Below, piece after piece: positions 58,846 through 64,000 of a stretch of 64,000 nt of DNA. The DNA is from Nakamurella sp. A5-74 (GTDB taxonomy: Bacteria; Actinomycetota; Actinomycetes; Mycobacteriales; Nakamurellaceae), in assembly GCF_040438885.1 (NCBI RefSeq), contig NZ_CP159218.1, forward strand, positions 3,534,001 through 3,598,000, written 5' to 3'. Under the pieces are notes generated by a model. It was given only the letters and a program-made list of their open reading frames with translations, did no database searches and was not told the origin of the DNA. Within the stretch, counting starts at the first letter, position 1; the number at the start of each line of letters is the position of its first letter. The position numbers were made by a program, and so were the translations under genes.

Positions 58846-59349
58846 TCACCGCACCCGGACGCGACCACGCCACCCGATGACGCGCACACCATCGGCCGTC
58901 CGCCGGGTCCACAACCCCCGACGACGACGCGGCGGCGCCTGTCCGTCGAACACCATCCGCGCTTCGCACATCGCCAGCTCGAGCGCGGCCGCGTCGTCGA
59001 GCAGCCCGGCGGCGAGACGCTCCCTGGCCAACAGCCAGCCGTCCTGCAGCGATCCACGGGTCGGCCGGTGCGCCGCCCACAGCGCGAACTCCGCCGCGAA
59101 CCGCGAGCGCATGCTGTTCGCCAGCGCCGGCCAGGCAGCCCGCACCTCTCCGGATCGTTTGGCCAGCAGAGACGTCCGCGCCAGCTCCACCCGGGCGACG
59201 TCGAAACCTGGCGGGGTATCGCCGATACCGGTGACGGCGGCGACCAGTCGGTGCTGGGCTGCCGCCAGTCGTTCGGCGGCAGCAGCGACCTCAGCAGCGG
59301 CCTCAGCAGCGGCCTCGGACTGAGCCGCTGGGCCATCGGATCCGGTCAT
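58846..59349 (-). CDS. Hypothetical Ala-rich helical protein
   Basis: A 167-residue protein, mostly alpha-helical and Ala/Arg-rich, with a coiled-coil-like N-terminus ([34 protein letters not shown]) and a basic C-terminal tail. [27 protein letters not shown] and [14 protein letters not shown] are its most distinctive segments. I recognise no domain. The ATG at [10 protein letters not shown] is preferred over a start 30 codons upstream that would enter the DHA2 transporter promoter region. It lies upstream of sahH on the same strand with 215 bp between. Confidence 0.6.
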
Positions 59350-59526: not shown

Positions 59527-61365
59527 GTGCCTCAGACAACCAACAGGCCTCGGACGGACGCTGTCGACACCATCGCGGCCGCGACCAGGAGCCGCCGGAC
59601 CGCGCTGTCCGTCACGACCGTCGGCATCCTCGCCGTCACCCTCAACTCGTCGATCCTGCTGATCTCGCTGCCGGCGATCTTCCGCGGGCTCGGCCTCGAT
59701 CCTCTTGCGCCACAGAACATCTCCTATTTGCTCTGGATGCTGATGGGATTCATGCTCGTCACCGCAGTGCTGGTGGTGACGTTCGGTCGACTGGGTGACC
59801 AGTACGGCAGGGCGAAGGTGTTCAATCTGGGCTTCGCCGTCTTCACGGTCGGCTCGCTCGGGTGCGCCCTGGTTCCCAACAGCGGCGCTGCCGGCGCCCT
59901 GGAGATCATCATCTGGCGCGTCGTGCAGGGCATCGGCGGCGCGATGGTGATGGCGAACTCGACCGCGATCATCACGGACGCCTTCCCGCCGGCCCGGCGC
60001 GGCTTTGCGCTCGGCGTCAACCAGGTCGCCGGGCTGGCCGGCGGCTTCCTCGGGCTGATCATCGGCGGCGTGCTGTCGGAGTGGGACTGGCGCGCGGTGT
60101 TCTGGGTCAGCGTTCCCGTCGGCGTCTGGGGCACCTGGCGGGGGTACCGATCGCTCAGCGATCCGCCACGCGACCGCAGCCACAAGGTGGTCATCGACCT
60201 CTGGGGCAACCTGACCTTCGGTGTCGGCCTGATCGCCCTGCTGGTCGGCGTCACCTACGGCCTGCAGCCCTACGGCGGCCACACCATGGGCTGGACGTCA
60301 CCCCTGGTGCTCGGTTCCGTCATCGGCGGTGTCGCCCTGCTCGTCACCTTCGTCCTCATCGAGAACCGGGTCGCCGAACCGATGATCGACATGAGGCTGT
60401 TCAAGGTGCGCGCCTTCTCTGCGGGTCAGGCCGTCAACCTGCTGGCATCGATGTCCCGCGGCGGCCTGCAGTTCATGCTGATCATCTGGCTCCAGGGCAT
60501 CTGGCTTCCGTTGCACGGCTATGCCTTCGAGGACACCCCGCTGTGGGCCGGCATCTACATGGTGCCGCTGACGATCGGCTTCCTGATCGCCGGGCCGGCG
60601 TCCGGGGCGCTGTCCGACCGGTTCGGTGCGCGGGCGTTCGCCACCGGCGGTCTGCTGCTGTCGGCGGCGACGTTCCTGGGTCTGATCCTGCTGCCCGCCG
60701 ACTTCAACTACGTCCTGTTCGCGGGCCTGCTGGCGCTGAACGGCATCGGCATGGGCCTGATGGCTGCACCGAACTCCGCCGCGATCATGAACGCTGTTCC
60801 GGCCTCCCAGCGTGGGGCGGCCTCTGGTATCAGGGCCACCGGCATGAACGCCGGCCAGGTGATCTCGCTCGGCGGGTTCTTCACGCTGATGGCGATCGGC
60901 CTGGCCGGCAGCCTCCCCCAGGCGATGAACGCCGGCCTCGTCGCAGCCGGCGTGGCGCCGTCCCAGGCGGCCGCTGCCTCGGGTGCGTCACCGGTGGGGA
61001 TCCTGTTCGCGGCGTTCCTCGGCGGCAACCCGATCAAGGAACTCGTCCCGAATGCCGACCCCGCGGTCGCCGCCAGGGTCTACGGCGACTCGTTCTTCCC
61101 CGACCTCATCTCGGCCCCGTTCCGCCACGGCCTGGCGATCGCCTTCACCTCGGCGATCGTGATGCTGCTGATCGCGGCCGGGGCATCGCTGCTGCGCGGC
61201 AAGAAGTTCGTCCACGAAGACGCACACGCGGACACTGCCGCCGGTACCGCGACCGTCGCGGCGGCAGCTCTCACCGGACTCGCGCGCGAAGGTGCCGCGC
61301 TCGACGCCGTCCCGGGGGAGGACGTCGCCTACGAGGAGGCACTGGCAAGCCGGCGCCGTCGCTGA
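59527..61365 (+). CDS. DHA2-type major facilitator exporter
   Basis: A 612-residue protein with about 14 transmembrane helices. Motif A appears as [16 protein letters not shown] near 88, motif C-like [24 protein letters not shown] near 158, and [14 protein letters not shown]; the second half repeats the pattern with [16 protein letters not shown]. The DHA2 group exports drugs or other small amphiphiles by proton antiport. A hydrophilic insertion rich in Ala and Asn ([18 protein letters not shown]..., [14 protein letters not shown]) lies between the late helices. The start is GTG with GGGAGA about 6 nt upstream. A 15-bp inverted repeat precedes it. It converges on the flavin reductase gene. 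Confidence 0.9.
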
Positions 61366-61386: not shown

Positions 61387-62262
61387 TCAGGTCCAGCCGA
61401 ACCGCTCGGTCCGGATGTGGGTGGCCTGATGACCCCACCCGAGCAGCAGATCGCTGACGTGTTCGACGAATCCCGACGGTCCGCAGACGTAGGCGGTCGT
61501 CGCGGACGGATCGACGGCATGCGAGGTCCAGACCAGGTCGTCCGGCGAGATCCGGCCCGCCGGACGGGGTGCGCCCGTCGTGGTCTGGCGGGTGTGGACC
61601 ACGCAGATCTCCTCACCCGCAGCAGCGGCCAGGAGTTCCTGCGCGAACCAGACGTCGCTCGGGGTACGCACCGAGTAGAGCATCCGCATCGGCGGCAGGG
61701 TGGCGCGCTCACCCGCATCGAGCACTCGACGCCGCTCACGCAGCATCGCCATCAGCGGCGTGATCCCGGATCCGCCGCCGACCAGCAGGATCGGTTCCGG
61801 CTGCGCGGGCTCCCAGGTGAACCAGCCACCGATCGGTCCGCGGAACTCGACCTCGTCGCCGACAGCGAGGTCCCGCACCAGGAACGGGGAGATCTCACCA
61901 CCCGGTGTCACCTGGACGGCCACCTCCACTTCACCGGGCACACCCACCCTGGACAGCGAGTACGCGCGTTGGGCGCGATAGAAATCGGCAGCCGTCAGCC
62001 GGATCTCCATCCGTTGACCGGCCAACGCGCCGACACACCCGGGAACGTCGAAGACCAATGTCGCCGCGGTCGACGATTCGGCGATCCGCTCCCGCAGGAC
62101 GCCCCGCTGCCAGCGTTTCGCAATCGGTGACCGCGCGCTGTCCGGCACGACGTCCAGTGACCGGTTGGCGCGGTCACTCACCATGCGCGGTGGCCGCGGC
62201 ACCGACGACTGCGACACGGACGACTGCGACACCGACGACTGCGACACCGACGACTCAGACAT
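61387..62262 (-). CDS. FAD/NAD(P)H ferredoxin-reductase-like oxidoreductase
   Basis: A 291-residue flavin reductase. The FAD-binding RAYSLSRVG is near 104, ISPFLVRDLAVGDEVEFRGPIG near 126, the pyridine-nucleotide loop LLVGGGSGITPLMAMLRERR near 163, and the C-terminal AYVCGPSGFVEHVSDLL near 262. There is no [2Fe-2S] domain at the end. It should pass electrons from NAD(P)H to a partner. The ATG overlaps the stop of the sulfite-oxidase-like gene by eight bases, and pairs of these genes are common in actinobacteria, so that molybdoenzyme is the likely partner. The N-terminal ~25 residues are SVSQS repeats from a 15-bp tandem repeat. Confidence 0.88.
   Translation of the reverse strand: MSESSVSQSSVSQSSVSQSSVPRPPRMVSDRANRSLDVVPDSARSPIAKRWQRGVLRERIAESSTAATLVFDVPGCVGALAGQRMEIRLTAADFYRAQRAYSLSRVGVPGEVEVAVQVTPGGEISPFLVRDLAVGDEVEFRGPIGGWFTWEPAQPEPILLVGGGSGITPLMAMLRERRRVLDAGERATLPPMRMLYSVRTPSDVWFAQELLAAAAGEEICVVHTRQTTTGAPRPAGRISPDDLVWTSHAVDPSATTAYVCGPSGFVEHVSDLLLGWGHQATHIRTERFGWT
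62204..62257 (-). repeat. 15-bp tandem repeat at the flavin reductase N-terminus
   Basis: Three full copies of GACGACTGCGACACC (plus strand; one substitution in the first) and a partial fourth lie in frame at the start of the reductase gene and run up to the stop of the upstream gene. They encode SVSQS pentapeptides. Expansion here would lengthen the reductase without touching its FAD domain. Confidence 0.85.
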
Positions 62263-62851
62263 CGGAGTACCGCTGCTCACGCCACGGATCGCCGTAGGCG
62301 TGGTAGCCGTTGCGTTCCCAGAATCCCAGCTCGTCCTCGGTCATCAGCCGCAGCTCGGAGACCCACTTCGCCGATTTCCAGAAGTACAGGTGCGGCACCA
62401 GCAACCGCGCCGGACCGCCGTGATCCCGGGCCAGCGGCTCGCCGTCGAACTCGGTGGCGATCAAGGCGCGCCCGTCCAGCACGTCGGCCAGGGGCAGGTT
62501 GGTGGTGTAACCGCCGTAGCAGTGCGCCATCAGATGTGTTGCGCTGGTGGAGATCCCGGCGAGTACGCGCTCGACGCTGACGCCCCGCCAGCGGGTGTCG
62601 AACTTCGACCACGACGTGACGCAGTGGATGTCGACCTGCAGTTCCTCCAGGCCGAGCGCCTGCATGCTCGCCCAGTCGAAGACCGTCCGGTCACCGGTCT
62701 CGGTGGTGACGGTCAGTTCCCAGCGCTCGGTGCTGATCCGCGGCGCCGGGCCGACCGTCAGCACGGGGAATCCGGTCTCGAAGTGCTGACCGGGCGGGAG
62801 CTTGGCCGAATGGTCGCGTCTGCCGACGAAACCCCGGGTGACGACGGACAT
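62255..62851 (-). CDS. Sulfite-oxidase-like molybdopterin oxidoreductase
   Basis: A 198-residue protein of the oxidoreductase molybdopterin-binding domain family (YedY/MsrP and SUOX relatives). The Mo-ligand Cys is in VDIHCVTSWSKFDTRWRGVSVERVL near 79; AHCYGGYTTNLPLADVL, HGGPARLLVPHLYFWKSAKWV and WERNGYHAYGDPW follow. There is no Tat signal, so unlike MsrP it is cytosolic. The substrate is unknown. The ATG is chosen because GAAGGAG lies 5 nt upstream. It follows the MNIO gene by 32 bp and overlaps the reductase gene. Confidence 0.88.
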   Translation of the reverse strand: MSVVTRGFVGRRDHSAKLPPGQHFETGFPVLTVGPAPRISTERWELTVTTETGDRTVFDWASMQALGLEELQVDIHCVTSWSKFDTRWRGVSVERVLAGISTSATHLMAHCYGGYTTNLPLADVLDGRALIATEFDGEPLARDHGGPARLLVPHLYFWKSAKWVSELRLMTEDELGFWERNGYHAYGDPWREQRYSDV

Positions 62852-62883
62852 CCGCACTCCTTCATGGCGACCGGCGGTGGCGA

Positions 62884-63861
62884 TCAGGCCGGCGGGTCCA
62901 GCCTAGTCGTGGCTGCCGCACCGACCGCCGTGGTGCTTGCTGCGGTGCCTGCAACTGCGCCCGCCGCGGTGCCTGCTGCGGTGATCCGCGGGTGCCCGGA
63001 GGCTTCGGCGATCGAGTCCAGCTCGGCGAAGATCTCCGCCTGCGGCGGATAGTTGCCGTCGCGCTCCAGCATCACCGCCGGGATCGGCTGACGCGACGTC
63101 AGCACGGTGAGCAGGTCCAGCACCTCCGGCGACACCGGCGCGGTATGGGTGTCGTGGTAGATCCCGTCGTGCTCGTCGCCGCCGGCGATGTGGACGTAGG
63201 CGATCCGCTCCAGTGGGATCTGCTCGAAAAGCGTCGGCGCCGATCCTGCTCGCCCGCCGACGGCATTGCGTGCATTGGCGTGCACGTTCGCGACGTCCAG
63301 CAGCAGCAGGGCGTCGCTGCGCTCGCAGATCTCGGTGATGAACTGGCCCTCCGTGAGCTCGTCGTCCGGCCAGTCGAAGAGCACGGCGATCGGTTCGAGC
63401 GCGACGGGCAGCCCCACGGCGGACCGGAAGGTGGCGACGTTGCGCACCATCACCTCGACGGCATCCCGGGTACGCGGGAGCGGCGTCAGGTGACCCACGT
63501 CCACGCCGCCGGCGCGGACGAACGAGATGTGCTCGCTCACCAGCGGAGCATGCAGCGCAGCTGCGACCGCGGCGAACCTGTCGAGTTGGGCGTGATCGGG
63601 TTCGTCGGCGCTGCCCAGGTTGACCCGGACCCCGTGCGGGACCACCGCGACGCCGGCGGCCCGGAGGCCGATCAGACCGCCCGGGAGCCGGGCGGGATCG
63701 ATCGATTCCGCGATCACCTCACACCAGCGCAGCCCGGGCAGCGAGCGGACCGCGAAGTCGATCTCCGGGCGCCAGCCGATGCCGACCCCGGCGACGGTCC
63801 CCGTGCGCACCACGCCGCTGGTCCCTGTTCCGACGATGCTGTCGGTGCTGTCTTCGCTCAT
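62884..63861 (-). CDS. DUF692 multinuclear non-heme iron oxidase (MNIO, MbnB/TglH/BufB-like)
   Basis: A 325-residue TIM-barrel protein of the DUF692 family. Candidate iron ligands and active-site residues appear in family order: His76 (VPHGVRVN), Glu110-His111 (LVSEHISFV), Glu156 (ALEPIAVLF), Asp189/Asn192/His194 (LLLDVANVHANARN), His224 (AYVHIAGGDEHDG), Asp237-His239 (HDTHTAPVSPEVLDL) and Glu266 (MLERDGNYPP). Known members modify Cys, Asp or Asn residues of peptides, as in methanobactin, 3-thiaglutamate and bufferin synthesis. The usual EN after strand 5 is EP here, a sign of a divergent clade. Its ATG overlaps the stop of a Cys-rich gene by one base (TGATG), which strongly suggests that protein is its substrate. 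The last ~35 residues are an Ala/Thr-rich tail. Confidence 0.92.
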   Translation of the reverse strand: MSEDSTDSIVGTGTSGVVRTGTVAGVGIGWRPEIDFAVRSLPGLRWCEVIAESIDPARLPGGLIGLRAAGVAVVPHGVRVNLGSADEPDHAQLDRFAAVAAALHAPLVSEHISFVRAGGVDVGHLTPLPRTRDAVEVMVRNVATFRSAVGLPVALEPIAVLFDWPDDELTEGQFITEICERSDALLLLDVANVHANARNAVGGRAGSAPTLFEQIPLERIAYVHIAGGDEHDGIYHDTHTAPVSPEVLDLLTVLTSRQPIPAVMLERDGNYPPQAEIFAELDSIAEASGHPRITAAGTAAGAVAGTAASTTAVGAAATTRLDPPA

Positions 63862-64000
63862 CAGCTGCTACCGCATCCGCCGCCGCCGCCGCAACTGCTC
63901 CCGCCGCCGCAGCTGGACGAGCTCCCACAACTCGACACGCTGCCGCAGCCGGAGGACGTGGTGCCGCAGGTCGACGAGTTCCCGGAGTCCACCCAGCCGG
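63861..64000 (-). CDS. Cys/Gly/Ser-rich C-terminal tail of a probable MNIO substrate (partial, 5' end missing)
   Basis: The last 45 residues before a TGA stop that shares its A with the MNIO start codon; the gene continues beyond the window. The tail holds six Cys at visible positions 11, 18, 24, 30, 36 and 42, the last five exactly six residues apart, in a background of only Gly, Ser, Thr and Val (for example VSSCGSSSSCGGGSSCGG). Such tails, as I remember, occur on actinobacterial membrane proteins of the TIGR04222 kind whose genes adjoin DUF692 genes. The regular Cys spacing and translational coupling make modification by the MNIO enzyme the leading idea. What the tail does after modification (metal binding, redox, surface display) is unknown. 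The N-terminal domain cannot be seen. Confidence 0.8.
   Translation of the reverse strand, partial: GWVDSGNSSTCGTTSSGCGSVSSCGSSSSCGGGSSCGGGGGCGSS

Follow-up and report, generated by a model that had tools for sequence, protein, structure and literature searches.

The closest described relatives of the locus reported here are the TIGR04222/MNIO clusters of Antoine et al. 2025 (PMC12452194), who gathered more than 3,500 TIGR04222 proteins, described C-terminal Ser/Gly regions with cysteines, and proposed that the subset encoded beside genes for MNIO iron oxidases (DUF692) are substrates of these enzymes. In the passages of that paper on this family, the tail is taken to be periplasmic, PME-type 2 partner proteins are found in at least 10% of the TIGR04222 clusters, and the modification and its role are left for investigation. 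By title and abstract, no experimental study of TIGR04222/MNIO systems was found in the literature searched, outside which most subscription journals lie. Here we describe such a locus in a 64,000-nucleotide stretch of Nakamurella sp. A5-74 (contig NZ_CP159218.1, positions 3,534,001 to 3,598,000 of the forward strand; the whole stretch is hereafter called the window). It comprises a TIGR04222 membrane protein with a regularly spaced cysteine tail, an MNIO enzyme and a partner protein that we call X. Since the pairing of MNIO genes with TIGR04222 proteins that end in Gly/Ser/Cys tails was published in 2025, the window locus is a further case of a type previously described from genome sequences. 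Its additions over the published account are a displaced X gene, a contrary reading of the topology and a candidate minimal substrate. The components are the following.

63861..64000, minus strand: 3' end of the TIGR04222 membrane-protein gene (TIGR04222 profile), with the Cys-x5 Gly/Ser tail and the stop.
L002 7861-8844: the full gene of this cysteine-tail protein, 327 aa, with its ATG at L002 8844, which equals window position 64844.
62884..63861, minus strand: MNIO enzyme (DUF692; PF05114 = MbnB_TglH_ChrH), 325 aa, with nine TglH-type iron ligands and EP at 156-157.
58846..59349, minus strand: X, the MNIO partner (PME-type 2-like), 167 aa, 3.5 kb from the MNIO gene; its database relatives bear the precomputed Pfam domain PF26136, the SCO6045-like C-terminal domain.

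The locus has in common with the published clusters all three components, a distribution mostly in Actinomycetota, a Gly/Ser tail with cysteines and an adjacent MNIO gene. It differs from them in that X is displaced by 3.5 kb, the tail is predicted to be cytosolic rather than periplasmic, and a six-residue period has been quantified. Bufferin systems likewise combine an MNIO, a DUF2063-like partner and a Cys-bearing precursor, and among NCBIfam models the window MNIO matches BufB, the bufferin maturase (NF050167), best. However, this match, at 150.1 bits, is far under the equivalog cut-off of 310, X is without the DUF2063 signature, and the bufferin precursor is a secreted peptide whereas a multi-helix membrane protein is encoded here. 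The MNIO shares the nine iron ligands of TglH, and X is likened in fold to TglI and MbnC, but the precursors of TglHI (3-thiaglutamate) and MbnBC are short peptides (TglA-Cys with a C-terminal Cys, and MbnA) and the C-terminal three-strand part of X is short. The MbnB model (TIGR04159) gave 27.2 bits, under its equivalog cut-off of 325. HvfA/HvfB and other EGKCG/oxazolin systems are alike in having an MNIO that acts on Cys; here the HvfB maturase model (NF003818) reached 131.2 bits, under its equivalog cut-off of 360, and the tail contains no EGKCG motif. Finally, a classical ribosomally synthesized and post-translationally modified peptide (RiPP) has a short precursor whose modified core is freed from a leader; the putative precursor here is a membrane protein of 327 aa. 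On balance, we think it probable that the TIGR04222 protein, MNIO and X form a system that modifies the tail cysteines, with a membrane-tethered metal or oxidant array as its product. The computed results are the components with their conservation and joint occurrence, the set of iron ligands, the fold similarity of X, a gene fusion and a charge bias; cysteine modification, its chemistry and its function we infer by analogy.

Read beyond position 64000, the cysteine-tail protein scores 56.1 bits against the NCBIfam model TIGR04222, over the cut-off of 43. Its start codon was picked via this match and, if the ATG at L002 8844 is used, the gene begins 844 bases past the window end. A reading of the window from its letters and open reading frames (the sequence-only reading) had guessed a three-helix membrane domain in this upstream part, and the relatives do show three membrane helices, together with a helix-turn-helix-like domain. 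That reading had also described the last five cysteines as six residues apart and the stop codon as overlapping the MNIO start by one base, and both descriptions hold. The visible tail (minus strand from 64000: GWVDSGNSSTCGTTSSGCGSVSSCGSSSSCGGGSSCGGGGGCGSS) has six cysteines at spacings of 7, 6, 6, 6 and 6, the last five being exactly six apart, and the TGA stop and the MNIO ATG share one base in TGATG. When the residues of the tail were shuffled 200,000 times, a run of at least four sixes appeared in 10 shuffles and any equal spacing four times running in 147. With a C-terminal Gly/Ser tail containing cysteines and a gene beside an MNIO gene, the protein belongs to the subset regarded as putative substrates in PMC12452194. 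The source genome contains a single TIGR04222 match and a single PF05114 match.

The coupling of the array to the MNIO gene is conserved in relatives. Of 61 genomes (the source and 60 relatives), 22 have PF05114, and 20 of these 22, but no other genome, also have a TIGR04222 match above the cut-off. A phylum-wide draw was sparse, with PF05114 in only 15 of 296 genomes; related loci were therefore used for statistics, namely the best 80 of at least 587 confirmed MNIO matches in public genomes, in which TIGR04222 was located with a profile built from relatives. A TIGR04222 protein was present in 73 of these 80 MNIO loci, and in 71 of them it ended no more than 201 nt from the MNIO match. Of the seven remaining loci, six have the MNIO gene beside a contig end and one (L126) has full flanks. 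Thus the gene upstream of the MNIO, for which the sequence-only reading had considered an unrelated low-complexity protein not conserved beside DUF692 genes, is a regular neighbour of these genes.

We then defined the tail as the longest C-terminal stretch with at least 80% Gly, Ser and Cys. This left 72 tails, 71 of them with Cys, once the seven loci without TIGR04222 and L121, where the frame is merged with a downstream open reading frame (ORF), were set aside; for L091 the tail counted is that of the TIGR04222 frame 832 nt upstream, and a further Cys-rich frame was left uncounted. Spacing six was the mode of the family, accounting for 131 of the 250 Cys intervals in the 71 tails, against a mean of 16.9 and a maximum of 30 in 500 rounds of shuffling. 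When one locus was taken per genus, spacing six made up 34 of 66 intervals across 22 genera. A CGG terminus was seen in 61 of the 71 Cys-bearing tails, in which Gly followed Cys in 268 of 321 cases. The exact period is lost in P0001, the sole match of one database search and 58% identical to the window protein, where the spacings are 13, 7, 8 and 4. Given the interval counts in all tails and across the genera, the six-residue period is a family trait, but a loose one. The same counts, and the retention of the CGG terminus, make it very improbable that the regular array is functionless drift of low-complexity DNA by expansion of GGC/AGC triplets, even though the spacing differs among relatives and Tandem Repeats Finder reported a run of CCG triplets over part of the tail DNA. 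This run was all that the program gave, and the idea that the tail DNA is an 18-bp tandem repeat was rejected.

The MNIO itself scored 226.5 bits against PF05114 (cut-off 25). The iron ligands published for TglH (PMC10880893), H71, H107, E151, D184, N187, H216, D229, H231 and E258, map to H76, H111, E156, D189, N192, H224, D237, H239 and E266, and all nine mapped ligands are invariant in 16 aligned sequences (the window MNIO and 15 relatives); H76, which precedes the aligned stretch, was assigned by motif. The sequence-only reading had noticed an EP in place of the usual EN and had taken it for a sign of divergent chemistry. The EP is real (E156-P157), but the bridging Glu is followed by Pro in 76 of the 80 loci and by Asn in 4, a count that may be biased by one of the locus-finding patterns, which permits only P or N at this position; in one further genome, L141, it is followed by His (EH). 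Moreover, P157 aligns with TglH N152, a residue absent from the published list of iron ligands. Because of this frequency and this non-ligand position, EP is ordinary for the sampled clade, with EN and EH occurring in relatives, and it was rejected as a marker of new chemistry. Spacing six made up 128 of 239 intervals in EP loci and 3 of 11 in EN loci, and 7 of 30 over eight hand-chosen EN loci, samples too small and too related to link EP with spacing. We also observed an Ala-rich C-terminal extension of the MNIO (window 62884-62983) with a 12-bp repeat, which is missing in most of the 15 aligned relatives; the MNIO of L045 has a C-terminal extension of another kind.

X lies in the same window and was overlooked by the sequence-only reading. 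Its fold resembles those of TglI and MbnC, and it has what distinguishes PME-type 2 partners, a fold related to DUF2063 or the RiPP recognition element without the DUF2063 signature. The X gene follows the MNIO gene in 79 of 80 other loci but not in the window genome, where the two matches are 3727 nt apart, whereas they are separated by 12-227 nt in the remaining 20 of 21 genomes. X is thus near-universal in the sampled MNIO clade, compared with the figure of at least 10% of TIGR04222 clusters given for PME-type 2 partners in PMC12452194. The partner model B of that paper is a 158-aa protein of M. matsumotoense, and the X of M. matsumotoense in our set (L082) is also 158 aa long from the chosen start. 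In all four genomes read of another genus (L136-L139; G083, G249, G163 and G184; genomes of 8-10 Mb), MNIO and X are fused in one frame. A TIGR04222 protein stands behind the fusion in L138, and none was found within the stretch read in the other three.

The fused relatives and the Pfam name of the partner domain suggest that its namesake, SCO6045, is presumably an MNIO-X fusion. In Streptomyces coelicolor wild type, SCO6045 was upregulated 3.01-fold with 0.15 mM H2O2 (PMC4991794). In the mutant lacking the HbpS-SenS-SenR redox system, no gene was upregulated, and according to that paper all 28 genes upregulated in the wild type were deregulated. This response to H2O2 offers a lead on the function of the TIGR04222/MNIO/X system.

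One may ask whether the tail is the substrate at all. The tail cysteines could stay thiols, binding metal or forming disulfides, while the target of MNIO and X is a different protein or some other part of the TIGR04222 protein. TIGR04222 proteins without Cys tails are indeed known (PMC12452194, and L026, L027 and L032 here), and a third of TIGR04222 genomes are without an MNIO according to PMC12452194. Furthermore, a Virgisporangium locus with MNIO and X encodes a TIGR04222 protein that has an acidic end and no Cys tail (L056 5070-5918). We nevertheless consider an unmodified tail unlikely: Cys tail, MNIO and X are tightly linked, and in G005, a genome of the same genus as the source, an EN-type MNIO and X occur with no TIGR04222 match yet with a different Cys-array protein. 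This 96-aa protein (L143 1887-2177, minus strand), which is not a TIGR04222 protein and whose start overlaps the stop of X, has a single hydrophobic stretch followed by an RRRRMRR patch and then a Cys/Ser/Gly array. The array, and not TIGR04222, is therefore the constant partner in G005. On this single case, the array would be the substrate and would stay inside the cell, and the 96-aa protein is a possible minimal MNIO substrate. A frame filter applied to L056-L147 gave one other match, a Cys-rich frame in L091 that looks like a broken TIGR04222 end. The search for relatives of the 96-aa protein gave one match (E-value 0.11, 78 aa), which ends at the Arg patch without a Cys tail. Together, the Cys array, the near-constant X and the 96-aa candidate form a tractable set for asking whether MNIOs modify whole membrane proteins.

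On which side of the membrane the tail lies was assessed with 63 aligned relatives, the window protein not being among them and anomalous ORFs being left out. The mean number of Lys and Arg residues was 0.05 at the N-terminus and 0.79 in the loop between helices 2 and 3, versus 3.06 following helix 1, 2.76 ahead of helix 2 and 6.33 following helix 3, and the excess lay on this second side in 63 of 63 relatives. The AlphaFold (AF2) model of P0001 (mean predicted confidence, pLDDT, 81.8) places three long helices on hydrophobic stretches, with a helix-turn-helix-like domain lying between helices 1 and 2, and leaves the tail unstructured at low confidence; a fourth hydrophobic stretch (about 227-248) is broken into a strand and short helices. 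The charge bias and this model favour, not decisively, an N-terminus outside, the domain inside and the tail in the cytosol, which contradicts the published periplasmic inference and goes against the surface tail of the sequence-only reading. Of the MNIO-coupled Cys-array system that had been proposed there, the TIGR04222 membrane protein, the array and its MNIO coupling are conserved, and the EP chemistry and the surface tail were not supported.

The same system could, however, carry its tail outside, modified before insertion and then exposed at the cell wall as a surface tail that binds copper or oxidants. Two observations speak for such an arrangement and weigh against a cytosolic tail. 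On the basis of topology and AlphaFold models, the tail is predicted to be periplasmic in PMC12452194, and the fourth stretch, which is almost uncharged in relatives, reaches a Kyte-Doolittle hydropathy (KD) of 1.6 in 13 of the 63 relatives and of 1.75 in the window protein, so that a fourth helix with the tail outside is possible. Conversely, the fourth stretch is broken in P0001, the Lys/Arg bias is without exception, a basic run (RKSSRTRRR) stands between the fourth stretch and the tail in the window protein, just ahead of the latter, and the G005 mini-protein has the order hydrophobic stretch, RRRRMRR and Cys array. An outside tail is possible, though we lean away from it. A bolder reading, to which we give less than an even chance, is that a RiPP-type enzyme, MNIO with the TglI/MbnC-like X, decorates a cytosol-facing Cys-x5 tail on a full-length, membrane-anchored protein, that the true substrate is the array rather than the TIGR04222 domain, as the G005 mini-protein would indicate, and that the product buffers a metal or oxidants inside the cell. 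As for the TIGR04222 domain, a whole-model fold search was dominated by matches to membrane helices, and weak profile matches (HTH_Crp_2, E-value 0.0016, in one member; GPP34, 0.052, in one member; DUF2207_C in 21 of the 63 relatives, best 1.2e-4) give no more than a hint of a winged helix and a membrane protein.

With a cytosolic tail, the system might work as follows. The three-helix membrane protein, which has a short helix-turn-helix-like domain and whose cysteines recur roughly every six residues in a C-terminal Gly/Ser tail, would be held as the precursor by X, by analogy with MbnBC and TglHI (PMC10880893, PMC8888699). The iron cluster of the MNIO, helped by X, would then oxidise the tail cysteines one by one with O2; judging by the charge bias, the array would face the cytosol, where the enzyme resides. 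The oxidised cysteines would probably be of the thiooxazole or the oxazolone/thioamide type, as in bufferins and methanobactin. Because BufB is the best NCBIfam match of the MNIO, the thiooxazole stated for a bufferin (PMC12452194) would be the likeliest product by relatedness, although no motif fixes it. The resulting soft ligands, arrayed on a membrane tether, would bind Cu or another metal or take up oxidants, and the function of the array may be metal handling, by analogy, or a response to oxidants.

Three further genes lie around X and the MNIO gene in the window.

62255..62857, minus strand: molybdopterin oxidoreductase-domain protein (PF00174), 26 bp past the MNIO stop.
61387..62280, minus strand: FAD/NAD(P) oxidoreductase (PF00970, PF00175).
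59545..61365, plus strand: major facilitator superfamily (MFS) transporter (PF07690), in a frame from 59545, which separates the X gene from the rest.

They were rejected as members of the system because a direct search of the 80 related loci found homologues in 1, 0 and 1 of them, respectively. Clustering of neighbouring genes also excludes the three; the crude gene caller used for it missed the TIGR04222 and X genes of the source genome. At the N-terminus of the FAD/NAD(P) oxidoreductase frame, four copies of a 15-bp unit (window 62196-62255) encode an SSVSQ repeat. Farther away, a 42-bp unit that contains the perfect palindrome CTCGGGGGGTGTCCCCCCGAG occurs in about five in-frame copies at L002 13407-13613, inside a carB-like frame (L002 11022-14648) that was named carbamoyl-phosphate synthase large subunit from reading alone. 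The palindrome has one further genomic copy, at 4553826.
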